Source: a virus
Virus record (IMG/VR): IMGVR_UViG_3300038423_000056
Coordinates: 1-42,284 of that record
Strand: one strand, 5' to 3'
DNA length: 42,284 nucleotides
Notes under the pieces: model-generated
What the model was told of the DNA's origin: nothing
Databases searched by the model: none
The model's input: the letters and a program-made list of their open reading frames with translations, nothing else
In this document: positions 139 to 42,284 of the stretch, one piece after another
How the letters are laid out: each line of letters starts with the position of its first letter
Position numbering within the stretch: position 1 is the stretch's first letter
Program-made: the position numbers and the translations under genes

Positions 139-873
139 TCAGTTTATTGCGGAATATGCTGGAACATATACCGTTGTTCCGGCACTTCCTTCATACATTT
201 TTATCCAACCCCAAAAAGTAGGTGCAGCACCGCCTGATGAAACATTATATGGGGCTGTTTGATGCGTGCCGCTAACATAAACCGTTGCACTATTTGTTGG
301 TCGCCATTGACCCGCCCCACCACTTCCGGGGTCGCTACCAGTACCGCTTACAACACCCGCACCGCTTACATGAAGGCATTGAGTTGAACCCGTGATCGGG
401 AAAGTGACTGTGCCAGTAAATGTGGGAGAATTTAACGGAGCATATCCCCCCCCCGCATTGTCTTGGACAATCATTGTCACTTTATCAAGCGCACGTTCAA
501 AGGTCTTATAGAGGGTAGGCATCCCGTCGGTAAAGGAGCTTAACTGCGTCTCTGGCGTGCTTCTTAAAATCTTCAAGGTATAGCCGGAGGTACAGGCGAC
601 AGTCAGCGTCACAGTTCCGCCGTTTAAATAACTGTTGTTTACGGATGCAGTTGTATAGTCAGTCGAGTAATTAAGTGTCGTGGTATTTCCGCTAAGGTCT
701 TTTTCAGTCACTATAAGGGCCGTGCCATCAGGCGTTACGGGGAATGTGAAGGCAAACGGGCCTGTAGTACCAGCGCAAACATAGCTGACGTTATTTACAG
801 TCGTGCTGATTGTTGCGGATGCCACACCCGTCATCATTAGAAATATAAAAATAAGTGTAATAATCTTTTTCAT
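139..873 (-). CDS. Tail fibre, short version, T7 gp17-type N-terminus behind a Sec signal peptide
   Basis: The 244-aa product probably mediates host recognition. After a signal-peptide-like leader (residues 1-20, ending GVASA), residues about 24-125 resemble the T7 gp17 virion-attachment domain: beta-rich, then a Gly-Tyr-Thr-x-x-Ile-x-Arg strand, an FTDG motif and a helix. A Gly-rich linker follows, then a C-terminal tip ending in WGWIKMYEG...YVPAYSAIN. The ATG at 873 overlaps the stop of the upstream ATP-grasp gene (ATGA), and a GGGG ribosome-binding stretch precedes it, so the leader is very probably translated. It is much shorter than the T7 fibre and than the alternative version at the right end. 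The Gly-rich part contains a run of nine G. Similarity to gp17 is by eye. Confidence 0.8.
   Translation of the reverse strand: MKKIITLIFIFLMMTGVASATISTTVNNVSYVCAGTTGPFAFTFPVTPDGTALIVTEKDLSGNTTTLNYSTDYTTASVNNSYLNGGTVTLTVACTSGYTLKILRSTPETQLSSFTDGMPTLYKTFERALDKVTMIVQDNAGGGYAPLNSPTFTGTVTFPITGSTQCLHVSGAGVVSGTGSDPGSGGAGQWRPTNSATVYVSGTHQTAPYNVSSGGAAPTFWGWIKMYEGSAGTTVYVPAYSAIN
332..448. repeat. 117-bp exact repeat inside the fibre gene (other copy 42168-42284)
   Basis: These 117 bases are identical to the last 117 bases of the window. They encode the junction after the fibre attachment domain, including the QCLHVSGAG stretch. Left of base 332 the two versions diverge into different fibre C-termini. 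Together with the 127-bp repeat this brackets a swapped fibre segment: 128-331 in the short form, 40234-42167 in the long form. Confidence 0.85.
446..454 (-). repeat. Homopolymer G9 tract (C9 on + strand) in the fibre gene
   Basis: Nine consecutive G on the coding strand encode part of a Gly run between the attachment domain and the tip. A change in length by slipped-strand pairing would shift the frame and remove the fibre tip. The right window end stops three bases into the equivalent tract, which may reflect length heterogeneity or poor coverage there. Confidence 0.6.
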
Positions 874-2129
874 ATACGTATTCCCCAAGATGCCAACTCT
901 TTAAGTTTTTCTTTTGCTATCGGAATTGAACGGGTGAAGCTCTCAATCTGGATGCCCTTCATCTGTTCGGATATTTCTTTTACTTCATCATAAAGCGGGT
1001 CTAAGCTATCACCCATAGCCACGATGCCAGCAATACGAGGGCCAGCATCTTGAGGCATTATCCACGTATGCCCGTCAAACTCGCTGTCATAACGGAATTT
1101 AATTTGCTCCCTGTATTTCTTTGGATACTGAACCATTAAGGGATGCTTAGAAGCCCAATCGCTATGTACGCAAAGCATAACCCCATATTTAGCGGCGTAC
1201 TCAGGGTCTATCATTTTACCCTCTGCCCCGAACCAAAATACATCAGGAGAGTTTGTAATCATGTTCATTTGCAATTCAAACGGCGGCGAACCTCCGCGCA
1301 TACAGGGATCGCCCAGCTTTATATCTTTGCCCTTTGCCCTTGATTCAAGGCTTATAAAATTCCGGCATTGATATTTTTTAAGCGTGTCGCTGAGCTTGTC
1401 ATAAATGACGGTCAGGTTGGGGGTAATCTGTGACCATTTTTTTACCGCACAAATATAGAATTCCCCCTTTTCCTCAGTACCGAGAAGCGCAACGGAAGGC
1501 CACAACCCATCAACACCATGCGTATCAATGGCTATGTCAATAGTGCCTTCTAAATGCTTCTCAACAACAAAGGTCATTATCTCCGCCTTTGGCCCTAAAT
1601 GATATTCAAGGTCGTCAACCTGTCCTTTATAAAGCTCATAACCTTCTACGAAAAACGATTCCATATCGCCGCGCGTCTTATCACACTTAATCCATAGCTT
1701 TTCGTTGTCATGTTCTTTAATATATTTTCTGAGCTTGCTTACACCCTTGACAAGTTCATACTCGCCCTGGTTGATTCCTAATTCGTCAAAGTACGGTTTA
1801 GCCTCACTTCGATAGATTTCAAGCTCATCAGCGTTTCTGCTGCCCCATACCCTCTTGCCGGAATTAACAAGCTCTATTTGTTCTTTCCCGTAGTATGTAT
1901 CAGGGAATATAAACAAGTCGGTTTCTTCCCTCACTTCCGCAATGCCTTCTACGCGGTCAAACTTATCTGAGCCTTCTCCGACCTCCGTATCTTTAGAAGA
2001 AGGAAAGGCGTTAATCCAGGGGCTGCTATACGTCACACGTCCAAACCACTTCGCAAGGGTACGCGGCAATTCCGAGAAGATGCCATTGTCCTGGATATGG
2101 ACTGACTTGCTTTTGTAATCCTGAATCAT
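870..2129 (-). CDS. ATP-grasp family ligase-like protein
   Basis: The 419-aa protein looks like an ATP-grasp enzyme of the carboxylate-amine ligase type (GAR-synthetase or CPSase-like fold), which couples ATP hydrolysis to formation of an amide or peptide bond. Visible marks are a central-domain lysine (IKCDKTRGD, about 147-155), the acidic hinge region FVVEKHLEGTIDIAIDT (187-203) and a late RGGSPPFELQMN motif (278-289), where E285 and N289 would fit metal and ATP binding. The N-terminal 100 residues resemble a pre-ATP-grasp domain. Its gene sits between the ejection-protein gene (4-bp overlap at its start) and the fibre (ATGA overlap at its end), so it belongs to the late structural operon. 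The substrate is unknown; amidation or glutamylation of a virion or host-surface component is possible. The family call is by eye. Confidence 0.6.
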   Translation of the reverse strand: MIQDYKSKSVHIQDNGIFSELPRTLAKWFGRVTYSSPWINAFPSSKDTEVGEGSDKFDRVEGIAEVREETDLFIFPDTYYGKEQIELVNSGKRVWGSRNADELEIYRSEAKPYFDELGINQGEYELVKGVSKLRKYIKEHDNEKLWIKCDKTRGDMESFFVEGYELYKGQVDDLEYHLGPKAEIMTFVVEKHLEGTIDIAIDTHGVDGLWPSVALLGTEEKGEFYICAVKKWSQITPNLTVIYDKLSDTLKKYQCRNFISLESRAKGKDIKLGDPCMRGGSPPFELQMNMITNSPDVFWFGAEGKMIDPEYAAKYGVMLCVHSDWASKHPLMVQYPKKYREQIKFRYDSEFDGHTWIMPQDAGPRIAGIVAMGDSLDPLYDEVKEISEQMKGIQIESFTRSIPIAKEKLKELASWGIRI

Positions 2130-7677: not shown

Positions 7678-8138
7678 TTTATTGCATCCTTGTTAAAAAT
7701 TCGGGAATACATATATACAGATTCATTTGAAGGCCCGTAGCATTTAAGAAAACCCTCCAACTCAAAACCGAGACATTTAAACCATTTTTCATCATGTGTT
7801 AGCGACACCGCCTGTACCCTGCAAAAACCTTTTTCTTCAGCCATTAAGGGCAATCTTTTTTTAAGTTCTCTGAATGCGGTCAGCTTGTATTTATAAAAAA
7901 GTGCCGAAATAAGTATCCATGCTTCTCCGCGTTTCCATCCGAGGTTTATTATGCCCGCACACATGACCGGGGCTTGAAAGCACATAAGCGTAAGAGCTGC
8001 GCTGCCGGGGCTAAGATACGCGGTCAGCATTTCATTCACCATCTTTTCAGAGAGCACCTTGCCCATGCCCCGGTTACGGGTTATAATATCTATCGCATGC
8101 TCTGCCGCAAAAGGCACAACCCTGAGATCAATTCTCAT
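7668..8138 (-). CDS. GNAT-like phage protein (T7 gp13-type position)
   Basis: A 156-aa protein with the outline of a GNAT acetyltransferase fold: an N-terminal strand-helix segment, a central strand region and a late CLGFELEGFLKCYG segment typical of the last GNAT strands. The AcCoA-binding R/Q-x-x-G-x-G/A loop is not clear, so it may be non-catalytic. In many short-tailed phages a gene of this type sits between the nozzle and the internal proteins and is called the gp13 or internal protein A homologue. It overlaps the nozzle gene by 4 bp. Confidence 0.5.
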   Translation of the reverse strand: MRIDLRVVPFAAEHAIDIITRNRGMGKVLSEKMVNEMLTAYLSPGSAALTLMCFQAPVMCAGIINLGWKRGEAWILISALFYKYKLTAFRELKKRLPLMAEEKGFCRVQAVSLTHDEKWFKCLGFELEGFLKCYGPSNESVYMYSRIFNKDAIKWN

Positions 8139-11100
8139 CCGCCGTCTGCAACGCTCAATCGCGGAATTATGGCTTTAAGCGTAAAGGGTAAGGGCAGATC
8201 ATGGACGATTGTTATTGTTGCCTCATCGTCCCACCCGCCATCTATATCAACCGTTATGTCGCCTGTAAAAAGAGTAGGCGCTGTACCCGTTCCAAACGGG
8301 ATCAAGTAGGTATTGCCCGGACTCAGGGAATAGCCGAAAACGCCGAGAGTTCCCGGAGCAATAGAATAACCATAGCCAACATTGTAAAGTTTTTTATTAT
8401 TAGACCCCACCTTGCAGCCAAATGTTTCATAGAAGCATAAAGTAGCACGGCTTATCTTTTGCTTTTTCCCCCTTGATGTTCCTTGCTGGCTGCCGATATT
8501 AGGATTCATCGGATCTATTGTTGTGGTATAGGGAAGTCCTATGTGGATTTTATTACAGTAATACGAAAAAGTTATAGTATCTGCGGCAACCGTTTCGTCA
8601 AAGATAATTGCCCCGTCACCCAGCGCCTGCACTTCCTTGCCCATAAGATAGGTCATGCCGGAAATTACATTCGTGACTTTCGTGGCAGTTCCGCCCGACG
8701 CGTAAGCAGTCCATCCCGTAGAATCAATACCTAACAGCGAAAAAGTATTCGTTGTATAATAGACTGTGATTGTAATTGACGTGCAACTCCATGTTGCTCC
8801 AATGGCATGTGTGCTGACCCCAACATCTACACCGAAACCGCTATTGTTATTGATGTCAGAATATAACCAATCGCCATCCCACAAATCAGAAGAACTGCCT
8901 AACGGGGTTGTGATATTAGAAAACCACCATGACGTTCCGCCCTCAAGGTTTATCCAGTTTTGCGTGTCACCATAATCTGAGCCAGCCTTCATTAATGTAG
9001 TTTTGGGGTCAATAGCGACAGTAGAACCCGTAGTATTATATTGAACCTTAATTCCCCTTATGACCGCATTGGAAGGAACGGTAAAACCAAAGCCTGTTAT
9101 TTTTTCATGCGTGTTCGTGCCGATGCTGCTTGAACCCCAGCCCGACACAGTTTTGGCCTGATTACTTACAGCCCCTACTCCCGTTACGGTGTAGGCTGCG
9201 GTATTGTCTTGATTGACTTGCGTCATTCCCAGCACGCCGGAAATATTAACTAAATCACCGTTAGCGAAAGTATGGCCGGGAGCGGTCACAACCGGGGGAG
9301 CGGCCTTGCTGATGTTCGTTATATTAACTGCGTCTCCGCCGTCCCACGTCAAGCCTGCATGAACAAAGAAGGCTTCTGTAATGTCTCCAAATATCTCTTG
9401 CGGCATGAAGTATTCAACATATCGAACCGTCGCCCCGTTAATAGTTCTATTGACAATAATCCATACCTGATCTTCGTCATTGTCCTGACTGACAGAAGCC
9501 ACAGATTCAATAACGCCGTCCGTGACGATTCTAAACCAAGCATAGACCTGTTCCTGACTTTCAAAGGTCATGCCGAGTAATTGGCCGTCCGCCCTTACCG
9601 CCCAAAAGATAGGGTAAGGTTCTGCCTGAAAAGCCGTTTGTATAATGCCGGAAGTGTCTTTAGTTGGCCCTATGGTAATATGCCTTGCAACGCGGGTTAA
9701 ATCCGGGGCTATCCATTGATTAGTCTGCCATTGATATTGAAGCAGCCGCACAACCCTTGCTGACCGCGTAACCCATATAATTGAATCATTGACCATTTGC
9801 GGGGCTATCTTGCCAACGCCTGTTGAAATCTGTTTTTCGTTATCCACATTGGCCTGTGAAAGAGAAGCGCCATTTGTTCCGCCCATCCCCCAAACGCCAT
9901 CAGCCGTGCCGATCATTAACATCTGCTTCCCTACAAGCCAGCGTATGCGGTCAACCTGACCTGAAACCATCGTAAACTGAAAGGCATGATCTTCTTCGTT
10001 AAGGTCACAAATGAAATCGGGGTAATCGCTTTGCACGCTACCATCTATATCTTGTGGTTTATTGTCAGACCCGGCAAGGACAAGACGCTGTTGAAATAGG
10101 GTTCCGCAATCAGGATAATCTCCCGTAGCGGCGAACATATTATTTACCGCAACAACAAATCCGCCAGCGACATAGGCATTAAACTGTGTTGTATCTATTA
10201 CCGCCCCGGTATCCGGGTCTTGAAGGTTAAACCGTTTCCATGAACCTGGCCCACCCGTAGTATAGTTATAAACAAGAAACTCCCCCCCGTTAAGTTCAAC
10301 CATGCCGGAAATTCCACTCATGTAGATTCTCTGACCAGTTGCTAATCCATCTTTAGTTACGTAAACGAGTGCGGGGTTTTGTTGAGAAATTGAAGCTATT
10401 GGATTGCCTATGTCTGCATATCCGGCGCTAACCGGGCCTTGAGTTCCCCTGCATGAAAGGTTTTGAAAAACCCAGCCAAAAGAGCAATACCGCATAAGTT
10501 CTGCCGGAGGATAGGAATGGTGAAAAATATATAATACATCCGCACTTTGCGAATTGACGTCTAAATCAAACAGGTCTGCCGCGAGGTATGGTGTGGTAAT
10601 CTCAACAACAGTAGCGGGTGAATAAATAGACCAATCAACGGTAAAGAGCGGAGGGAATTCATATTGATTATTATGGTTCGCCACGTATGCTTGAGCAACC
10701 GTGGTCATTGACGAAGATGTGGTTGTAGGGGCGACGATAGCCGGAGTTGTATTGTATGCTGAATTCGCGTCAACCGTCCAGCCCGTCAAGTTAATATATT
10801 CATCGGTAGCGCCGTTTAAACCGACCAGCGCAACGATTGCGGCTTGAATATTCGTGGCACTATTTTTAGAAGGAGTTGCGTCTGCAAGTAGAATACTAAG
10901 ACCCTGATTCGGTGTTATGCCATTTTTAGCAACGGAGAGTGTGTCTCCTGTATTAACGCCTATGGTAATGGTAACATTGCCTGTATAAAATTGTGCAAAG
11001 GGGGCTATGATGTTAAGAACCTTTGACCCCGTAAAAGAAAAAGAGGCATAAGCCCCTACCTTAACGTACTGTCCCGCCGTGTAAGCCGTGCCGGGAACGT

Positions 11101-11431
11101 AGTTGCTCAGGGCGGTAACATCACCTGTAACAAGTCCGGCATTTGCGCCTGTAGCCCATACCCTTATATACTGATTGCCAAACTCTAAAATATAATTCTG
11201 AATTGTGGAAAAACTGAAAGAGACAAGCCGTGCCTTGCTTGCACTGCCATACTTAGTAGAACCACCATAATAAGTACCGGGCATTTTCTTTGCCCCACCC
11301 TCTACAAGAGGTAAGGCGTTCTCAAGCGTTTGACAGCCGCTTGCGTATTTAGAAATGTCCGTGCGGGCTTCTATTAACCCCGAAAGCTCCCCGGCATTAA
11401 AGCTATTGATTGGAATAGAAGACTTAAACAT
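8135..11431 (-). CDS. Tail nozzle protein (T7 gp12-like, tail tubular protein B)
   Basis: A 1098-aa beta-rich protein directly after the adaptor gene. Its N-terminus (NSFNAGELSGLIEARTDISKY) is typical of podovirus nozzle or stabilisation proteins, which form the tip of the tail tube. A segment around residues 290-560 contains the characteristic QRLVLAGSDNKPQDI and WLVGKQMLMIGTADGVWGM stretches. It is longer than T7 gp12 (about 794 aa); the extra length is largely a Thr/Ser/Gly-rich insertion at about 700-980 that may form surface beta-domains. The stop of the adaptor gene overlaps its start. Confidence 0.75.
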   Translation of the reverse strand: MFKSSIPINSFNAGELSGLIEARTDISKYASGCQTLENALPLVEGGAKKMPGTYYGGSTKYGSASKARLVSFSFSTIQNYILEFGNQYIRVWATGANAGLVTGDVTALSNYVPGTAYTAGQYVKVGAYASFSFTGSKVLNIIAPFAQFYTGNVTITIGVNTGDTLSVAKNGITPNQGLSILLADATPSKNSATNIQAAIVALVGLNGATDEYINLTGWTVDANSAYNTTPAIVAPTTTSSSMTTVAQAYVANHNNQYEFPPLFTVDWSIYSPATVVEITTPYLAADLFDLDVNSQSADVLYIFHHSYPPAELMRYCSFGWVFQNLSCRGTQGPVSAGYADIGNPIASISQQNPALVYVTKDGLATGQRIYMSGISGMVELNGGEFLVYNYTTGGPGSWKRFNLQDPDTGAVIDTTQFNAYVAGGFVVAVNNMFAATGDYPDCGTLFQQRLVLAGSDNKPQDIDGSVQSDYPDFICDLNEEDHAFQFTMVSGQVDRIRWLVGKQMLMIGTADGVWGMGGTNGASLSQANVDNEKQISTGVGKIAPQMVNDSIIWVTRSARVVRLLQYQWQTNQWIAPDLTRVARHITIGPTKDTSGIIQTAFQAEPYPIFWAVRADGQLLGMTFESQEQVYAWFRIVTDGVIESVASVSQDNDEDQVWIIVNRTINGATVRYVEYFMPQEIFGDITEAFFVHAGLTWDGGDAVNITNISKAAPPVVTAPGHTFANGDLVNISGVLGMTQVNQDNTAAYTVTGVGAVSNQAKTVSGWGSSSIGTNTHEKITGFGFTVPSNAVIRGIKVQYNTTGSTVAIDPKTTLMKAGSDYGDTQNWINLEGGTSWWFSNITTPLGSSSDLWDGDWLYSDINNNSGFGVDVGVSTHAIGATWSCTSITITVYYTTNTFSLLGIDSTGWTAYASGGTATKVTNVISGMTYLMGKEVQALGDGAIIFDETVAADTITFSYYCNKIHIGLPYTTTIDPMNPNIGSQQGTSRGKKQKISRATLCFYETFGCKVGSNNKKLYNVGYGYSIAPGTLGVFGYSLSPGNTYLIPFGTGTAPTLFTGDITVDIDGGWDDEATITIVHDLPLPFTLKAIIPRLSVADGG

Positions 11432-12144
11432 TATCTACCCGCGTTCTCCCACTCTTGCCCCCCGGCCTCATCATCTAAATAGTCAAGTGATTCATTAACA
11501 GCTTCGGCGGAGTTAAGGGAGTTCTTATAATCCTGCATCTTATTGACGGCCTTTTCTTTGTCTTCTGTGATGGAGATTGCAAGTTCCGCCGCAAGCCTGT
11601 TCGCAAGGCAGTTGATAAAAGCGGGTGTGCATAATGTGTAATCAGAAATCAGGCGGATATAGTTGATGTAAAGGTCTTGCTCTGTATTGTCGTAATCGGT
11701 AAAGAGACAAAGCACGCTGGTATCAGGCAATGCCTCTATGACATACGGCAATCCGGCGGGATAAACAGGCGGATCATAATTAAAGAAACGTGAATAACCC
11801 GACGTGTCAATAATGTTGTACCAGTAGCCCAAAGGATAGGCCACGGGATTAACGCCTTTTGAAGTTGACTCTTTCGGTTTAACAAGACGTAAGAAATCAG
11901 AAGGCAGGGGATATGCAAATTGATAAGCATAGAGCGGCGCTTCCGTAGATTGCGACATTTTATATCGTGTCTTTGCAAACCGCCAATCCCGCGCCTGTAA
12001 TACTTCTTGAAAAATATAATCCCAAACGGCAAGGGCTTTTATCGAATTGGCCGACCCTTCATCAATGGCCGAGATTATGCTGGCACCAATGCGTAACAGG
12101 GCAAGATTTATAATGCCCACCTGCGAAGCGCTGGGAGTTCCCAT
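11431..12144 (-). CDS. Head-tail adaptor (T7 gp11-like, tail tubular protein A)
   Basis: A 237-aa mostly helical protein. The N-terminus (IINLALLRIGAS) followed by LQARDWRFAKTR and later YINYIRLISDY is the pattern of the gp11/gp4-type adaptor that docks under the portal and connects to the nozzle. It is followed immediately by the nozzle gene. A strong hairpin at 12157-12190 lies just upstream, between this first tail gene and the last head gene. The SD is AAGGGG, about 6 bases before the ATG. Confidence 0.75.
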   Translation of the reverse strand: MGTPSASQVGIINLALLRIGASIISAIDEGSANSIKALAVWDYIFQEVLQARDWRFAKTRYKMSQSTEAPLYAYQFAYPLPSDFLRLVKPKESTSKGVNPVAYPLGYWYNIIDTSGYSRFFNYDPPVYPAGLPYVIEALPDTSVLCLFTDYDNTEQDLYINYIRLISDYTLCTPAFINCLANRLAAELAISITEDKEKAVNKMQDYKNSLNSAEAVNESLDYLDDEAGGQEWENAGR

Positions 12145-28912: not shown

Positions 28913-29179
28913 ATGCCACTCCGAGGATACATGACATTAGTTAAACTGAAGCCGACAGCGGGGGAACGGATAGCGTCAGTATTTGTTCTTTTTGTCGTGT
29001 CCTGCTTTATTGCGGCGATCATGTTTTTCTTCATGCTCGGTGCGATACAGATGCACAAGGAGCAAGTAAAGCACCAATGGGCGAAACAGCGTATGGCTTA
29101 TCATGGGACAGAGATGTCTTATGAGTACCGAGGTCAACACTACTTTATCAACAAGAAGGGGCAGAGGTGCAGGTTATGA
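28913..29179 (+). CDS. Membrane protein of the early operon, 88 aa
   Basis: The N-terminal 20 residues are basic, then a hydrophobic segment (about 21-46: IASVFVLFVVSCFIAAIMFF) spans the membrane, followed by a charged region with QHYFINKKGQRCRL. The stop overlaps the ATG of the repeat protein. Membrane modification during early infection is possible, but nothing specific is recognised. Confidence 0.6.
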   Translation: MPLRGYMTLVKLKPTAGERIASVFVLFVVSCFIAAIMFFFMLGAIQMHKEQVKHQWAKQRMAYHGTEMSYEYRGQHYFINKKGQRCRL

Positions 29180-30291
29180 AAGAAATCATCATCAATACTC
29201 AAGCCGAAATGGACGCGGTAAAAGCCGATTTTGACGGCATTATAAAGATTATGGGCATCGGCATCCGCGTGAAAATCCGTTATCGGTATTATGTGGAGGC
29301 CTGGGAAAATGCGTCCGTGGAGGCCCGGGAAAATGCGTCCGTGGTGGCCTGGGGAAATGCGTCCGTGGTGGCCCGGGAAAATGCGTCCGTGGTGGCCCGG
29401 GAAAATGCGTCCGTGGAGGCCCGGGAAAATGCGTCCGTGGTGGCCTGGGGAAATGCGTCCGTGGTGGCCCGGGAAAATGCGTCCGTGGAGGCCCGGGAAA
29501 ATGCGTCCGTGGTGGCCTGGGGAAATGCGTCCGTGGTGGCCTGGGAAAATGCGTCCGTGGTGGCCCGGGGAAATGCGTCCGTGGAGGCCCGGGGAAATGC
29601 GTCCGTGGTGGCCCGGGAAAATGCGTCCGTGGTGGCCTGGGAAAATGCGTCCGTGGAGGCCCGGGAAAATGCGTCCGTGGTGGCCTGGGAAAATGCGTCC
29701 GTGGTGGCCCGGGGAAATGCGTCCGTGGAGGCCTGGGAAAATGCGTCCGTGGTGGCCCGGGAAAATGCGTCCGTGGTGGCCTGGGAAAATGCGTCCGTTC
29801 GCTTGTGGGATAAAATAAAAACCCTTTCCTGTTTCGGCTTCTCGGTAGTTATTCAGCCGTTCGACCTCAAATTCAAATTCAAAAAGACAAAAGATGTCCT
29901 TGTCCAGAAATTCAAGCCATTGCCATATCTGGAGCGTGAAGGAATCGAAGTCAAGAAGGGCAGCGTGATCCTGTTCAAAAAAGTGTCCAAGGATTTCAAG
30001 ACACAGGAAGGCACAAAGAACGAAACGCTGTGGGAGATCGGCTCGACGGTCACACACCCGGCGTGGGAGCCGAAAGAGAGCGAATGCGGCAAGGGCAAAT
30101 TCCATGCTGTTTTCCGTCCGTATTTTGGTAGTGAGTTTCGGAATGCCAAGGATGATAGATACGTCGCAATCAAAATTAAGGTTGACGACCTGTACGAATG
30201 GCCGAATCCTAGATACCCGCACAAGATAGCATTCAGGAAAGGTAAAGTTTTGTACGAGTGCGATAAGTTTGGGAAAGAGGTTAAGCCGTAA
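29176..30291 (+). CDS. Repeat protein with 21 NASV octapeptides and a C-terminal globular domain
   Basis: The 371-aa protein (ATG 29176, overlapping the upstream stop; a GTG at 29167 is less likely) has three parts. A 39-residue N-terminus (KEIIINTQAEMDAVKADFDG) leads into residues 40-207, 21 octapeptides of the form [V/E]A[W/R][E/G]NASV. The C-terminal about 160 residues are a separate domain with GSTVTHPAWEPKE...CGKGKFHAVF, a pattern I recall from phage proteins with an uncharacterised C-terminal domain of the same sort. The repeats could fold as a beta-solenoid. No enzymatic residues are evident. A role in shielding or host interaction is only a guess. Confidence 0.7.
   Translation: MKEIIINTQAEMDAVKADFDGIIKIMGIGIRVKIRYRYYVEAWENASVEARENASVVAWGNASVVARENASVVARENASVEARENASVVAWGNASVVARENASVEARENASVVAWGNASVVAWENASVVARGNASVEARGNASVVARENASVVAWENASVEARENASVVAWENASVVARGNASVEAWENASVVARENASVVAWENASVRLWDKIKTLSCFGFSVVIQPFDLKFKFKKTKDVLVQKFKPLPYLEREGIEVKKGSVILFKKVSKDFKTQEGTKNETLWEIGSTVTHPAWEPKESECGKGKFHAVFRPYFGSEFRNAKDDRYVAIKIKVDDLYEWPNPRYPHKIAFRKGKVLYECDKFGKEVKP
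29293..29796 (+). repeat. 21 tandem 24-nt units within the repeat protein
   Basis: There are 21 in-register 24-bp units. Nearly all variation is at three codons: GTG/GAG (V/E), TGG/CGG (W/R) and GAA/GGA (E/G); the rest, including AATGCGTCC, is invariant. Unit order contains larger duplications (the EARE-VAWG-VARE block occurs at units 2-4 and 6-8). Because 24 is a multiple of three, all frames stay open, which creates a false long ORF on the other strand. Confidence 0.9.
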
Positions 30292-36285: not shown

Positions 36286-36495
36286 TCATCGTTTGATTAA
36301 TTCATAACCTTCCACATAAACGCTACCTTGAAATCCCTGTACTTCATATAGCGGAGGACAGATGCCTTTCACGTCTGTAACCATTGTAGGCATCCCCCGA
36401 TAATAAACCATGTCCCCACTATGGAATTGCTGTGGGGGGCAGAAAACGCTACAACCCACAAGTAGAAACACCGCCAATAAGAGTAACTTCTTCAT
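36286..36495 (-). CDS. Small lipoprotein, 69 aa
   Basis: ATG 36495 is preferred, because from here the product opens with a lipoprotein signal MKKLLLLAVFLLVGC; the lipobox LVGC gives lipidation at C15. The mature part has CPP and an SH3-like segment (FHSGDMVYYRGMPTMVTDVKG). AGGAT precedes the start. It could be an outer-membrane lysis or exclusion factor. It is not a clear o-spanin. Confidence 0.65.
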   Translation of the reverse strand: MKKLLLLAVFLLVGCSVFCPPQQFHSGDMVYYRGMPTMVTDVKGICPPLYEVQGFQGSVYVEGYELIKR

Positions 36496-37007
36496 AGAAC
36501 TGGTATCCTGTTTGTCCATTTTTGCATTTTTTCGGGTAACTCGCCCGGCCAGTAAGCGGTATCATTAGGTGTACCACCTAAACACACCTCAACATATTCT
36601 GAGCAAAAGAGCTTGTCCGTTTCAATTTTACAATGACCAATAAGTTGTCTTGTTAATCCTTCATAATCATATGGCACGCCGAGATATGAAAACGCCCGTT
36701 CTTCAATCAAGGGAATTTCAGGTGCATACTGCTCTTTAAGTAAATAAAGATATGCCTTGCCATCCCATTGTTCTAACTTTTTTGACAGGAATGTAACGTC
36801 TATTCCGTCACCGAGTGCTTCAAAGACAAAGATCCTTCTCTGCCCCGAATACGGGCTGTCCAGAATAACGGCAAGGGAACTGTGGTTCACGTCATAACCC
36901 GTTTTGAGCCTTATAGCATCACCAAGAAGGCTGTTGGCATGCCATTCTACCAAAGCTCCTGTACCAATCTGCCCCCTGACCTTTTGATAAAGGGTTAAAT
37001 CGTTCAT
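36492..37007 (-). CDS. YiiX/C92-like permuted papain-fold peptidase
   Basis: The start is set at ATG 37007, which overlaps the spike stop (ATGA). The 171-aa product has H42 in VNHSSLAVIL and C135 in LFCSEYVEVCL, the order expected in circularly permuted NlpC/P60 (YiiX, C92) enzymes. Such enzymes act on peptidoglycan peptides or lipoprotein-type substrates. It is between the spike and the lipoprotein, so it could help entry or lysis. No signal peptide. Confidence 0.65.
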   Translation of the reverse strand: MNDLTLYQKVRGQIGTGALVEWHANSLLGDAIRLKTGYDVNHSSLAVILDSPYSGQRRIFVFEALGDGIDVTFLSKKLEQWDGKAYLYLLKEQYAPEIPLIEERAFSYLGVPYDYEGLTRQLIGHCKIETDKLFCSEYVEVCLGGTPNDTAYWPGELPEKMQKWTNRIPVL

Positions 37008-39427
37008 CAATACGCCGCCCATGTCCCACCATTGGTTCCCACTTCACAGAACCACTGATAATAAGAGTTCGTAGCGTCTATACAGGCAGTCCGACAACGG
37101 AGAGTGTCACCTTTTACTGCTGCGGTATCTTTGATGCCCTTTCCTGAACCTATAACTCCATCCGTCCCAGCAAGCGCCATTAAATCACCCATTGGCTGTA
37201 GATAGACAGAGGTTACTGCGCCGTTGAAATCGGCTGTCGGTGTGAATTTGGGAGCCGTGGTCGCATTGGCGGTGAAGGCAAAAGAGTAAGTGCCTGCCGC
37301 CGTCCTTGCCGTGTCGGTTTGCCCCCCCGCTGAGAACGTGACAGAAGTGCCTGCTGTCATGTAAACCGTGTAGGTGGCAAGGTAAGACTGACCGTTGACA
37401 CAAGAGTAGGTAGAGGTCAAGGCGGTTGTAACAGTTGTGGTATGTAGGGCTTCCCCGCCATTTGCCGCGTTATACGCCCAATTTGCACCCGACCATCCAG
37501 TGAGACTTCCTATTCCATAGATGACATTCACAAGGTCAGTCGTAGTCGCTGGTACATTATTCAGGATGCCACTATTGTTTTTTAGACCCCAAAGATTAGA
37601 TTCTGCTGTGGTAAGATTAACCTGAAAGCTGTATCCCGCCTTTGCCGTAGGAAGATAGTTTGTGATGTCTGCCGCTGCCTGCCCTGTGTTGACGAGTATC
37701 GTATCGCTGACCTGAGCTACGGAGAGGCCAACTGCGGTAATGTTGATGGTAAGGCCGGAACCGTTAGTCCAGTATCCAGTTGCAGTAAGTGCCGAAGTAG
37801 GCCATCCTGTAGCAACCGTATAATCCCTGCTTCCACTATCGACCAATACAACGGAAGTTACAACACCGCTGTTTTGGGTAGCAACCTTAACGATTGCATC
37901 ACCCGTCCCCCCTGCTGAGGTCAGCGTAGAATTTGCGCCGTACTGTGATGTTATTTCTACCTTGACAAGGTCACCCGTATTGTAACCCGTTCCTCCATTG
38001 GTGGGAGTTGCACTAATAGTCGCAATCGAACCAGAGGTCACAGCGGCAGGTATTATCTGTTCAGTGTGTTTAAGGGGAGCCGTCAAAATTGCGTTTCGGG
38101 AAAAGTGCATATCGCCCAAGTTGTCAATGTAAGAAATATCCCTGAAGATTTCATAATTCACGCTCATGCACTGTGGTGGGTATTCAATGGGCTCTACAGT
38201 AAGTAGATGTTTTGCATCCGTAACAGATTTGACGGTGTAATAAGATTTTTGGAAAGCGTGGGTTCCAATGTAATTAGATATATGCAGAATGTCGCCAGGT
38301 AATACATTTGCAAAGGTCGCCCAAGGGTCGTTACCGTTGATGTTTGAAAAATTATTTAATGTAGCAGTTCCCGCACTACAGCCATCATTATAATTTATCG
38401 AACCGCTATAACCATTTGCCCCTGAATTATTTGCTATTGTAAGATACGAACCCCAAAGGTCTGTTTTGTTCCCGCTGGCAAAATTTAAGGTGGAATTATA
38501 TTGTAAACTTACCTGACCACCGTTCAAGATATTCCCGTACATAGAATATCCGTATCCTGCCGCAACGATGGCCTGGGGAGTTTTCCAAAAGATGTTGTTA
38601 CTTACAACTTCGTTAGCCATCTGTGGAGAGATTCCCGACTGACCCACATTATAGAAAATGTTTGAATCTATCACGATGGGTGTACCATATGTTGATATGC
38701 CTTGATTGAGAATATTATAAAAAGTGTTATGAGATATATCTATGTACGCACCGCCGTTTTCATAGATTCCCCAGTTAAGCGTATCAAAATAATTATTATC
38801 TATTCTCGTTCCGGTGTTAGACCCGCCTGTTGCTATCCCTACGCCCTGTGTGCTCGCACTTTGAACGAATTTATTATCGTGAATCGAGCTTCCGGTATCG
38901 TCAGCAAAATAGAGATGAGAAACCCATTGAACTGACCGATTTCCTACAAATGAGTTTTTTGAAATATCTCCGTATGTCGTATGGGACATATTTAAGTCTT
39001 GAAAACCGCCGTTATCAAAATATACGTCATAGACAAGTGGATAATCGACATAGGTTAACGAAATGCCGTTACTCGCTGCCCCACCTGCTTTAACACGCAA
39101 ATTTGAGATTGAAACATTTGTAAGGTGCGTTCCATTTGTCCCTACGACATCAAAGACATCTCCAGTTGAGGTATTGTGGATATAGGTGCAGTAACCCGCC
39201 CCTTGAATCGTCTGCTTATCATAGACGGAAAGGGCTGTCGTGATTGCGTACGTGCCGCAGGGAATATAGACGTTCCCACTTGCACCCGCAGCATCAAGGC
39301 ACGCCTGCAACGTCCCATACTTCCCGCAGTCGGTGACGTTGGTGAGGGAACCCGGCATCGGTGGTATTGCGAACGCAGTCGAGGCAATCAGCAATAAACT
39401 TATTATGAAAATAGATATCTTTTTCAT
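37007..39427 (-). CDS. Right-handed beta-helix tailspike, exported-type leader
   Basis: The 806-aa protein starts with a Sec-type signal (KKISIFIISLLLIASTAFA). Residues about 30-300 form a pectate-lyase-like beta-helix: YGTLQACLDAAGASGNVYIP is the usual opening strand and helix, and many short Asn-containing rungs (DNNYFDTLNWGIYENGG, SHNTFYNILNQGIST) follow. The C-terminal half is Thr/Gly-rich. Phage spikes of this class often degrade surface polysaccharide. Active residues cannot be assigned by eye. It lies upstream of the lysis cassette. Confidence 0.7.
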   Translation of the reverse strand: MKKISIFIISLLLIASTAFAIPPMPGSLTNVTDCGKYGTLQACLDAAGASGNVYIPCGTYAITTALSVYDKQTIQGAGYCTYIHNTSTGDVFDVVGTNGTHLTNVSISNLRVKAGGAASNGISLTYVDYPLVYDVYFDNGGFQDLNMSHTTYGDISKNSFVGNRSVQWVSHLYFADDTGSSIHDNKFVQSASTQGVGIATGGSNTGTRIDNNYFDTLNWGIYENGGAYIDISHNTFYNILNQGISTYGTPIVIDSNIFYNVGQSGISPQMANEVVSNNIFWKTPQAIVAAGYGYSMYGNILNGGQVSLQYNSTLNFASGNKTDLWGSYLTIANNSGANGYSGSINYNDGCSAGTATLNNFSNINGNDPWATFANVLPGDILHISNYIGTHAFQKSYYTVKSVTDAKHLLTVEPIEYPPQCMSVNYEIFRDISYIDNLGDMHFSRNAILTAPLKHTEQIIPAAVTSGSIATISATPTNGGTGYNTGDLVKVEITSQYGANSTLTSAGGTGDAIVKVATQNSGVVTSVVLVDSGSRDYTVATGWPTSALTATGYWTNGSGLTINITAVGLSVAQVSDTILVNTGQAAADITNYLPTAKAGYSFQVNLTTAESNLWGLKNNSGILNNVPATTTDLVNVIYGIGSLTGWSGANWAYNAANGGEALHTTTVTTALTSTYSCVNGQSYLATYTVYMTAGTSVTFSAGGQTDTARTAAGTYSFAFTANATTAPKFTPTADFNGAVTSVYLQPMGDLMALAGTDGVIGSGKGIKDTAAVKGDTLRCRTACIDATNSYYQWFCEVGTNGGTWAAY

Positions 39428-39438
39428 GGCGTGCCTCC

Positions 39439-39981
39439 TTACCGAGCCTTAAATATCAGGTCGAGGGTTACTTGCGCCGAGAAGTTAGTGGCGCCGTTTC
39501 CAGTAATCGCCACAGTAGGGGCTGACCTGATTACGGGATAGCCCGTTGCGGTATTTTCCATCAGCGTCAACTGTGCTACCGATGCTGAGCCGTTTGAGGT
39601 AAGCAATCCGAGATCAATTGCATATCCCTGTGTGTCCGTAATTGTGACCGTGTAAAGCGTTGTCGGACAGGCAACTGAGCATGTAAGCTGAGAAGAACTT
39701 ACATTTCCCGGCGTTCTTCCTACCTGATACAAATAGTAGCCATAGAGATTGTAGGGTGGATTTGTCGTTGTGGAAGGCACAAGGGCAATCGTAGCGGTTG
39801 GAAAGGTAGCCGAACCCCCCGAATCAGCGATACAGGTTATCGTGACTATGGCCGTTACCGCATCTGCAACTCTGTCCTGTGGTGTGTACGAGGTCTTAAC
39901 GGTCTGTGTGCATGACCCTAATCCGTAAGCCGGAACTGCAAACAGAATTACGAGCATCAATGCTAAAAGTATTTTTTTCAT
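39439..39981 (-). CDS. Exported beta-rich protein, 180 aa
   Basis: A signal peptide (KKILLALMLVILFAVPAYG) precedes a Thr/Ser-rich beta-protein with four Cys (CTQTVK, TCIAD, LTCSVACP), some of which may pair in the periplasm. It is between the spike and the small coiled-coil gene. It may be a fibre or spike accessory. No family was recognised. Confidence 0.6.
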   Translation of the reverse strand: MKKILLALMLVILFAVPAYGLGSCTQTVKTSYTPQDRVADAVTAIVTITCIADSGGSATFPTATIALVPSTTTNPPYNLYGYYLYQVGRTPGNVSSSQLTCSVACPTTLYTVTITDTQGYAIDLGLLTSNGSASVAQLTLMENTATGYPVIRSAPTVAITGNGATNFSAQVTLDLIFKAR

Positions 39982-39996
39982 TGTGAATCCTCCTGA

Positions 39997-40233
39997 TTAT
40001 TTCTTGGGTTTAGTTTCCTTTTCCTTGTCTTCTATAGCTTTCAATTTTGCCTCTAACTCAGGCAGAGCTTTTTGTATCTCCTGATATTGCTGTGGGAGAA
40101 ACCTCATTTGCATTTCGATATTCTGTAGAATCAATTTGGAGTTGCTTATTCTGAGTTGCAATTCAGTCTTTTCGTCTGCCCATACCGTAGTCGCAAACAA
40201 CAGAACCAATGCCGTGATGATGATTTTTTTCAT
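39997..40233 (-). CDS. Small exported coiled-coil protein, complete copy, 78 aa
   Basis: ATG 40233 gives a signal peptide (KKIIITALVLLFATTVWA, cleavage before DEKTE) and a highly charged coiled coil (LQLRISNSKLILQNIEMQM, then ELEAKLKAIEDKEKE). An upstream in-frame extension only reads the end of the fibre region. It directly follows the fibre, and its first 42 codons are repeated at the left end of the window. A periplasmic fibre chaperone is possible. Confidence 0.7.
   Translation of the reverse strand: MKKIIITALVLLFATTVWADEKTELQLRISNSKLILQNIEMQMRFLPQQYQEIQKALPELEAKLKAIEDKEKETKPKK
40107..40233. repeat. Right-hand copy of the 127-bp exact repeat
   Basis: Identical to 1-127 in the same orientation. 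It covers the signal peptide and the first part of the small coiled-coil gene. Here it is followed on the right by the long fibre, whereas the left copy is followed by the short fibre. Confidence 0.85.
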
Positions 40234-40246
40234 ATGGTTTCCTTTC

Positions 40247-42284
40247 TTATTGAATCGTTCCGTACAGTGGTATGTAATATGTATTACCCCCGTAATACAC
40301 TTTTCCCCATCCATAGAACCCCGGAGGGGTACTACCAGTTACACTATATGGTGCAGTTTGTCCTGTACCGTTACTATAGACAGTAAATACATTTGTTGGT
40401 CTAAATTGACCAGCCGAACCACCGGGATCACCCCCTATACCTATTCCACCTCCGGTATATACAAAATTAAACTGAACATTGGAATTTGTCGCCAACCCCT
40501 GATTGATGCCTGTTAAGTTTGCGTTGTACGCTTGCACATCACTTCCTATATTAAGACCCAATGAAGTTCTGCCTGTAGCAGCAACAAGATTTGTTGAACC
40601 ACCATCCCATTGTAGTCTTTGGGAATAGGCTGCATCCCAATTTGTATGATTGTCTGTAATAGTCGTAACTACCGATGCACCATTACCTACAAGTATTCCG
40701 GAAAGAGAATCAAGCTGAACCGTACTCACAACATGTAAAGTTCCACCAATACCAACATTACTCTTAAAATATCCCGCACCATTTTGGTCAACATCGAAAA
40801 GTGCAGTTGAGTTGTCCGTATCAAGAGCCAAGAATGGGTACTTCCAGCCCTTATTTCCCTCGGCAAGAAATCCCGCATATTGGCGAACATTGTTGAGGGT
40901 ATAGGGAGAAATATCACCAGAGTAAGCTCGGATACCGACACCATAAAGCGGCGTGCCTCCGGGGTCAACCTGACTAACCAAAATAGCATCAAACACTATC
41001 GTGTTTCCAGCATTTGGGGCGGCTCCCCCACTACTATTTTTAAAGACTTGAAATTCCCCGCCGTATATTCCCGCCGTATTCACATTACTTGTGACCAACA
41101 CATTACTTTCAATACCGCTTATCTCCACATTGGAATTAGCTACTGCCGCCGTCACATCAGATATGATACCATAACCATCATAAGTAGTTCCACCATATGT
41201 ATATGTCCTTACTATACCCAGTCCAGTTGATTGACCAGAACTAAGTCCCGATGAATCAGACAATGTGCCAGAGATATAAACTATCGTTGTGTTTTTATCA
41301 TATGTCATAGCTGACATACCCGCTAACACACCCGCATTATTATATTGTGCCTGAGTATCAGACCCACCTGGAGTTGATGACGACGAACTATATGAGAAAT
41401 TACCCGACCCATCATTCTTTAAAAATCCACTAGAGTTCGCCAAATTAGCAATCGAGGCAAGGTTGACATTATACGCCTCATAGTCGGAAGATGAAGATGC
41501 GGTAGATAATGTAGCTATACCGCCAGAAACCGCCATTTTCAGAAGCCCCGTTGTCAATGCTCCGAGATTAACAGCATTGGCAGGTTCACTTGTGGACTGT
41601 GTAACCACATAGTACCCACTTGCATTTGCCCCACCGCCTCCACTCACGCAATCCGCACCCGTAGCAGACAAAACACCACTTGAATTGACATGGAGGCATT
41701 GTGTTGTGCCAGTCAATGCGCCAAAGGTGGTTGTACCATTAAGCGTAGCCGCCGTAAGGGTAGGGGTAGTAAGCAAAGGAGATGTGCTATATACCAAACT
41801 GGTTGATGAAGTTCCCGTTGTGCCTGTAGCTAAGGCAAGATAATTTAACTGTGTTCCAGTAGCCTGTACCTGCGTTGTTCCTATAGTAAGACCCGAAGTC
41901 GCCGCGCTATAGGAAGGAACGGTTACAATTCCTGTAAACGTAGGAGATGCCAAAGTAGCATAATTCGCTATTGTTGCAAAAGCTCCTGTCCCGAAAGCTA
42001 CGTTATTGCTTTTTAGGCAAGTGATTACACCCGCCGATGTTATGGTACAGTCTTGACTTAGGGTTACACCTGCGATATGAGTAGAATCATACCACATGCC
42101 TAACTGATTGGCCGTCGGAGTGCCGTGGGTATAAACATTACCGCCACCTCCGCCCCCACTTCCGCAATCGCTACCAGTACCGCTTACAACACCCGCACCG
42201 CTTACATGAAGGCATTGAGTTGAACCCGTGATCGGGAAAGTGACTGTGCCAGTAAATGTGGGAGAATTTAACGGAGCATATCCC
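40247..42284 (-). CDS. Tail fibre, long version, 5'-truncated by the window end
   Basis: The frame is open from the window edge; the internal ATG 42097 is not its real start. The first residues visible match the end of the attachment-domain part of the short fibre (QCLHVSGAGVVSGTGSD). The body is Ser/Thr/Gly-rich beta with repeated modules: TTQCLHVNSSGVLSATGADC at about residue 135 of the Met-42097 numbering echoes the N-terminal module. The end AGQFRPTN...TYYIPLYGTIQ matches the short-fibre tip. At least 679 residues are present here. It probably starts with the same leader and T7-type domain as the short fibre. Confidence 0.75.
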   Translation of the reverse strand, partial: GYAPLNSPTFTGTVTFPITGSTQCLHVSGAGVVSGTGSDCGSGGGGGGNVYTHGTPTANQLGMWYDSTHIAGVTLSQDCTITSAGVITCLKSNNVAFGTGAFATIANYATLASPTFTGIVTVPSYSAATSGLTIGTTQVQATGTQLNYLALATGTTGTSSTSLVYSTSPLLTTPTLTAATLNGTTTFGALTGTTQCLHVNSSGVLSATGADCVSGGGGANASGYYVVTQSTSEPANAVNLGALTTGLLKMAVSGGIATLSTASSSSDYEAYNVNLASIANLANSSGFLKNDGSGNFSYSSSSSTPGGSDTQAQYNNAGVLAGMSAMTYDKNTTIVYISGTLSDSSGLSSGQSTGLGIVRTYTYGGTTYDGYGIISDVTAAVANSNVEISGIESNVLVTSNVNTAGIYGGEFQVFKNSSGGAAPNAGNTIVFDAILVSQVDPGGTPLYGVGIRAYSGDISPYTLNNVRQYAGFLAEGNKGWKYPFLALDTDNSTALFDVDQNGAGYFKSNVGIGGTLHVVSTVQLDSLSGILVGNGASVVTTITDNHTNWDAAYSQRLQWDGGSTNLVAATGRTSLGLNIGSDVQAYNANLTGINQGLATNSNVQFNFVYTGGGIGIGGDPGGSAGQFRPTNVFTVYSNGTGQTAPYSVTGSTPPGFYGWGKVYYGGNTYYIPLYGTIQ
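42168..42284. repeat. Right-end copy of the 117-bp exact repeat
   Basis: Identical to 332-448. It stops three C into the C9 tract, at the window end. Left of 42168 the sequence differs from that left of 332, so this is the second boundary of the fibre fork. Confidence 0.85.

Follow-up and report, generated by a model that had tools for sequence, protein, structure and literature searches.

A phage tail fiber with a T7 gp17-type anchor carries a Sec-type leader and a leader-linked cysteine pair, and may dock on tails only after export

Tailed phages are taught to be assembled completely in the cytoplasm. What, then, is to be made of a tail fiber whose gene begins with a Sec-type signal peptide and continues with the domain by which the T7 fiber is attached to the virion? 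Such a gene lies at the left end of a virus record (IMG/VR IMGVR_UViG_3300038423_000056), the full 42,284 nucleotides of which are referred to here as the window. The original prediction for this locus offered two readings: either the leader is uncleaved and has a role in the virion, or the fibers are attached outside the cytoplasm or presented by the host.

The start of the fiber gene had been placed by an ATGA overlap, and this assignment holds: its ATG (873-871, minus strand) overlaps the TGA of the gene just upstream (870-2129, minus strand), and a Shine-Dalgarno-like GGGGA (882-886, minus strand) lies 8 bases upstream of the leader start. The upstream gene is conserved in the window's clade and encodes a 419-residue protein with no Pfam or PHROG match; it is kept near the fibers throughout that clade at 47-57% identity, the locus L100 discussed below included. 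The 244-residue fiber ORF as it appears in the record (139-873, minus strand) is not the usual gene, and the record ends inside the fiber gene. The gene of four near-identical IMG/VR records (L005-L008) encodes 820 residues and maps to the window from 873 to about 312 and then from 42284 to 40247. The remaining 678 residues of this long allele (40247-42283, minus strand) are severed from their N-terminus by the end of the record; they are matched in the near-copy L018, which is 99.96% identical to the right end of the window and in which the right-end part continues the 820-residue gene. Positions 150-311 belong to a different, shorter fiber allele, the last residues of the left-end fiber ending are 59% identical to the C-terminus of the long fiber, and positions 1-149 repeat the start of the gene after the fiber with 96.6% identity. 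In our reading, the left end comes from a short allele present in the same population, and the record ends (1-311 and 40247-42284) suggest that fiber length variants occur in that population.

The first 20 residues of the fiber (MKKIITLIFIFLMMTGVASA; 814-873, minus strand) had been called a signal peptide, and they were signal-peptide-like by a crude scorer of our own, which looks for a net positive n-region, an uncharged hydrophobic core and small residues at -3/-1 and which cuts after ASA (ASA/TIST). The scorer requires A, G or S, so the final Ala is partly built in, but the position of the cut relative to the domain is not. That position is where the leaderless relatives start: the anchor of five cultured relatives begins M-T-V-S/N, and the leader occupies the place of that Met in the alignment. 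The features of a Sec and signal peptidase I substrate (positive n-region, hydrophobic core, small-x-small) were found in 4 of 47 window ORFs and in 27 of 166 fiber loci. The leaders vary in their letters and have in common a basic start, a hydrophobic core and a final Ala at the N-terminus of the relatives, and they stop at this point even in lineages whose leader letters are unrelated. The predicted mature chains begin with Thr-Val or Thr-Ile in 22 of the 27 leadered loci. A chance hydrophobic run is disfavored, as none of the other 139 loci scored one, and a lipoprotein-type leader was rejected, the scored cut not being before a Cys.

The hundred or so residues that follow had been likened to the T7 fiber attachment domain, and family matches and predicted fold agree on this. 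Matches to PHROG tail-fiber families begin at residue 21 of the fiber and position 2 of the profiles (phrog_1640, E 3.9e-20; phrog_5510, E 6e-17), and the anchor profile matches the Dpo31 tailspike (E 4.6e-41); the Pfam T7 tail-fiber model was not among the fiber's matches at E 0.1. An AlphaFold2 model of residues 1-150, built from a 47-row alignment (pLDDT 84.4, pTM 0.70), was compared with known structures by VIA-align and matched the Carin-1 fiber over residues 22-146 (8ck1_B; Z 14.6, 122 residues, rmsd 2.3) and T7 gp17 over residues 25-150 (7ey9_b and 7boz_b, Z 13.0 and 12.9; 116 residues and rmsd 2.3 for 7ey9_b). The anchor, with the start of the helix after it, covers residues 21-145 (439-813, minus strand). 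It is not at the translated N-terminus here, where the 20-residue leader comes first; 139 of the 166 loci have no scored leader. R104, T109, Q110, D130, T133, Q137, G86 and F44 are kept in all 23 distinct leadered domains (L108, described below, left out), and F120 and H125 of the plain fibers are among the residues not kept in leadered domains.

Structure prediction of the N-terminus, one of the checks originally proposed, places the leader outside the anchor fold, with a helix at residues 2-13. Such a helix would suit a leader that is retained for a role in the virion or in membrane anchoring, for example as a hydrophobic plug or tether. Nevertheless, the uncleaved leader of the original prediction is disfavored, and we regard it as highly improbable: the leaders share their type and a small-x-Ala end rather than letters, this end would not be needed at that place if the leader stayed on, and a cleaved fiber would have the N-terminus of its leaderless relatives.

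The comparison with relatives rests on 166 fiber loci among the matches listed, 27 leadered and 139 plain. An IMG/VR profile scan (A1), of which the best 80 of 335 matches were kept, contributed 76 plain and 4 leadered loci, L018 included, and further scans were added to these. Left out of the tally were loci from the four near-copies of the window phage besides L018 (L005-L012, L098, L099, L141-L144), duplicate contigs (L118-L120, L122, L152, L158), two loci with an open 5' end (L191, L197), the truncated L121, in which the leader and first Cys are seen and the second half is missing, and the cultured-phage loci (L013-L017, L115, L116) together with additional loci from genome searches. Same-domain duplicates (L103/L123, L153/L154, L160/L161) were kept. 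No leader was found in the cultured-phage records: among 40 of 110 matches listed, 35 begin at residue 18 or 20 of the query and the remaining 5 are Ab31-like, extending upstream without a leader, and in a second search the best 30 of 31 matches begin no earlier than query residue 29. Pseudomonas phage Ab31, in which tblastn ran into upstream sequence (from query residue 3), was rejected as a cultured leadered case; its annotated TTG start is at the plain position and the letters upstream are not a leader.

The leader does not come alone. Exactly two anchor cysteines, aligned with positions 33 and 94 of the window protein, are present in 26 of the 27 leadered loci among the matches listed, while the pair is found in none of the 139 plain loci, 4 of which have a single Cys. 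Taken separately, Cys33 (775-777, minus strand) is a Cys in 26/27 leadered and 1/139 plain loci and Cys94 (592-594, minus strand) in 26/27 and 0/139. Counting distinct domains only, the pair occurs in 23 of 24 leadered and 0 of 115 plain cases among the matches listed. Scans A2, A4 and A5 are biased in this respect, having used search patterns with Cys in them, and the patterns of A1 and A6 were free of it: the pair was present in 4/4 leadered and 0/76 plain loci from A1 (best 80 of 335) and in 16/16 and 0/37 from A6, or 20/20 against 0/113 for the two scans combined, among the matches listed. Fisher's test on the full table gives 1.6e-29 (2.2e-25 for distinct domains), values that take no account of relatedness and carry no weight here. 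The only leadered exception is L108, which has a leader-like N-terminus without the pair (L108:6001-6450) and an ATG at codon 20; this ATG may be its true start, in which case the fiber would have no leader.

The trees excluded both the leader and the two Cys columns. The leadered rows fall in separate groups, and in the 47-row tree the starred branches force at least three changes of the trait; a single origin of the leader, modeled as one clade, was rejected (p-AU 0.016, 47 rows). Starred branches of the 68-row tree force five leader changes, with L108 counted as leadered, and leader and cysteines agree in 4/4 informative independent pairs (sign test p 0.125, four pairs being too few to reach 0.05). 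Among these loci L100 branches within a leadered clade and is devoid of leader and cysteines alike, a joint loss, and the 180-residue-type protein beside its fiber keeps its own leader. A general Cys-richness of these genomes was also considered and rejected: the Cys content is 1.58% in leadered and 0.61% in plain fibers, whereas the proteins upstream differ little (0.33% versus 0.26%). Outside the anchor, the mean Cys content is 1.45% in 15 leadered fibers and 0.75% in 90 plain ones (p 0.005). The linkage of leader and cysteines is strong, as judged from these alignments, and was not part of the original prediction. A leader with a linked Cys pair points to Sec export followed by folding in an oxidizing compartment, and we consider it very probable that the fiber is exported and oxidized.

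Two alternatives would keep all or part of the fiber in the cytoplasm. In the first, the leader is untranslated or a start-site artefact and the fibers are ordinary; gene starts in metagenomes are, after all, predictions. This we find scarcely credible, given the purine-rich, Shine-Dalgarno-like bases before the leader starts examined, the presence of a leader in 24 distinct domains and its linkage to the cysteines. In the second, export is leaky or timed, so that part of the fiber is assembled in the cytoplasm and part is exported. Codons 13 and 14 of the window leader are indeed ATG and codon 17 is GTG (read in L018, with the same codons in the window), from which a leaderless form might be made. 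However, the leaders of L020 and L103 contain no ATG, GTG or TTG, which argues against both alternatives, and a virion pool made in the cytoplasm would leave the tracking of the leader by the Cys pair unexplained; two pools are therefore very unlikely in our judgment. An internal start after the leader was the outcome originally named as refuting export of the virion fiber. It is excluded for L020 and L103, and on their account rejected for the group, but the window itself retains the ATG codons.

Export would not be confined to the fiber. The 4 of 47 window ORFs flagged as leadered are the fiber and proteins of 80, 180 and 806 residues, and their genes adjoin once the record ends are joined as in the relatives. 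The chance of one block of four is 0.00026, a figure that ignores the clustering of genes of like function. No leader was flagged in the capsid, portal, gp11-like or gp12-like proteins. The 80-residue protein (39997-40233, minus strand) is predicted by the leader scan to be exported and cut at MKKIIITALVLLFATTVWA/DEK. The 180-residue protein (39439-39981, minus strand), likewise predicted to be exported, is beta-rich and has homologues beside the clade's fibers; Cys24 and Cys50 are invariant in 7/7 members of its family, a further sign of an oxidizing compartment. Its model is of low confidence (pLDDT 62) with no PDB match below E 0.001, and neither a credible Pfam model nor a cultured-phage match was found for it. 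The 806-residue protein (37007-39427, minus strand; predicted cut MKKISIFIISLLLIASTAFA/IPP) is a right-handed beta-helix protein (Pfam Beta_helix, E 7e-6) and a probable tailspike. The protein encoded after the spike (36492-37022) matches Peptidase_C92 (YiiX-type amidase) with 27.2 bits against a cut-off of 27.0.

In L018, which has the whole fiber gene, the same kinds of gene come after the fiber, with a 344-residue protein bearing a similar leader (L018:9283-10317) in place of the beta-helix spike. By tblastn the two are alike only in about their first 60 residues, the leader included, and such a swap in near-identical phages is as expected of a receptor-binding cassette. Among loci with at least 1 kb downstream, the gene after the fiber is leadered in 4/14 leadered-fiber and 1/79 plain-fiber cases (Fisher p 0.0016, relatedness ignored); several of the flagged downstream genes in both sets may encode spanins or other membrane proteins. 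In L027 a plain fiber is followed directly by a 625-residue ORF with a leader (MTRFLAIIFALFATVAYA), and possibly only this second protein is exported there.

If the fiber is exported, does it ever reach a virion? The window encodes the docking partners expected of a T7-type fiber, both without a leader: a gp11-like tail protein (11431-12144, minus strand; phrog_394, E 1.9e-34) and a gp12-like tail protein (8135-11431, minus strand; phrog_376, E 3e-153). The latter also has an E1_FCCH match (Pfam PF16190, E 8.7e-15, residues 352-429) in two stretches. Elsewhere in the window, an ORF at 29167-30291 has many tandem 8-residue units (xNASVxAx), with another frame and the other strand open as well. 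There is one anchor domain in the window, and the same holds for 25 of 26 related records, among them L100 and L108; many of these records are metagenomic fragments. The 26th, L157, has two, both leadered and with the Cys pair. A plain anchor-bearing fiber beside a leadered one was found neither in the window nor in the related records searched, many of them fragments.

The main rival is that the fiber is exported and disulfide-bonded and never joins progeny virions, remaining instead periplasmic, bound to the surface of the host or free in the medium and acting there, for example in receptor blocking against superinfection or in degradation of surface polymers. It shares the export evidence of the leader-linked Cys pair, and phages do set exported surface proteins beside tail genes: a passage of a published account describes lambda Lom as having a signal peptide and as encoded between spike and fiber genes (PMC12309495). 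Lom thus resembles the window fiber in having a signal peptide among tail spike and fiber genes but differs in being an outer-membrane protein. To our knowledge, it has no virion anchor domain. In the leadered fibers, on the other hand, the anchor retains its fold and its most conserved residues, the tail docking proteins are present, and, with no plain anchor-bearing fiber in the searched records, such virions would be left without this kind of fiber. The retained core residues, the single anchor and the docking partners favor fibers that join tails after export over fibers that never join. We consider a non-virion fiber unlikely and late joining of the fibers to virions fairly probable, again as read from the genes. 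The other original proposal, of fibers attached outside the cytoplasm or presented by the host, gains support for its export part from the leader-linked cysteines.

L114, one of the leadered relatives, was found in a MAG that carries the label delta proteobacterium, and the genes that follow it look bacterial, so a diderm host is likely there. Among 395 genomes of that MAG's phylum, 16 had an anchor match (18 matches), and only the L114 MAG was leadered by reading. The terminase of the window has distant cultured relatives (below 27% identity in the best 10 of 548 matches).

The anchor fold, the core residues and the gp11/gp12-like tail genes are shared with T7 gp17 (7boz/7ey9), Carin-1 (8ck1), Dpo31 and the uetakevirus spikes. 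Unlike T7 gp17-type fibers and podovirus tailspikes, the window fiber has a cleavable-type leader in place of the start Met and a Cys pair added to the anchor. The spikes of P22 are cytoplasmic products and are not known to have a leader. Israel, Anderson and Levine reportedly joined P22 tail parts to heads in vitro in 1967, which suggests that completed heads can still acquire receptor-binding parts outside the cell. The endolysin Lys44 of fOg44 is described, in part of a published account, as sent through the host Sec system by an N-terminal signal peptide (PMC6116005); it has a Sec-type signal peptide in common with the window fiber but is a lysis enzyme rather than a structural protein of the virion. 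No precedent for an exported fiber of a tailed phage was recognized in the open-access full-text literature, which was mostly judged by title and the start of the abstract.

On balance we judge it probable that the fiber is exported, matures in the periplasm and docks on tails at lysis. The fiber would be genuinely exported by the Sec system and processed by signal peptidase I in what would, for the window phage too, be a diderm host, and cleavage at ASA/TIST would leave a Thr-Val/Ile-Ser/Thr start like that of the leaderless relatives after their Met. The anchor would form a Cys33-Cys94 disulfide in the periplasm, where the shaft would also fold and trimerize, together with the 80-residue, 180-residue and beta-helix spike products of the block. 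Heads and tails would be built in the cytoplasm as usual, and docking of the fibers onto the gp11/gp12-like tail would wait until lysis opens the inner membrane, or take place in the lysate.

More broadly, we lean slightly toward the existence of a group of short-tailed phages that make heads and tails in the cytoplasm and fibers and spikes, with disulfides, in the periplasm, the last assembly step falling during or after lysis; fibers would have changed several times between the cytoplasmic and the exported state, on every occasion together with the same two cysteines. If this is true, a fiber that crosses the inner membrane first would add a route to phage assembly and couple fiber attachment to lysis, and the disulfide hardening of Cys-rich fibers would be explained. 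The linkage of leader and cysteines also cautions against dismissing a signal peptide on a tail fiber as an annotation error.
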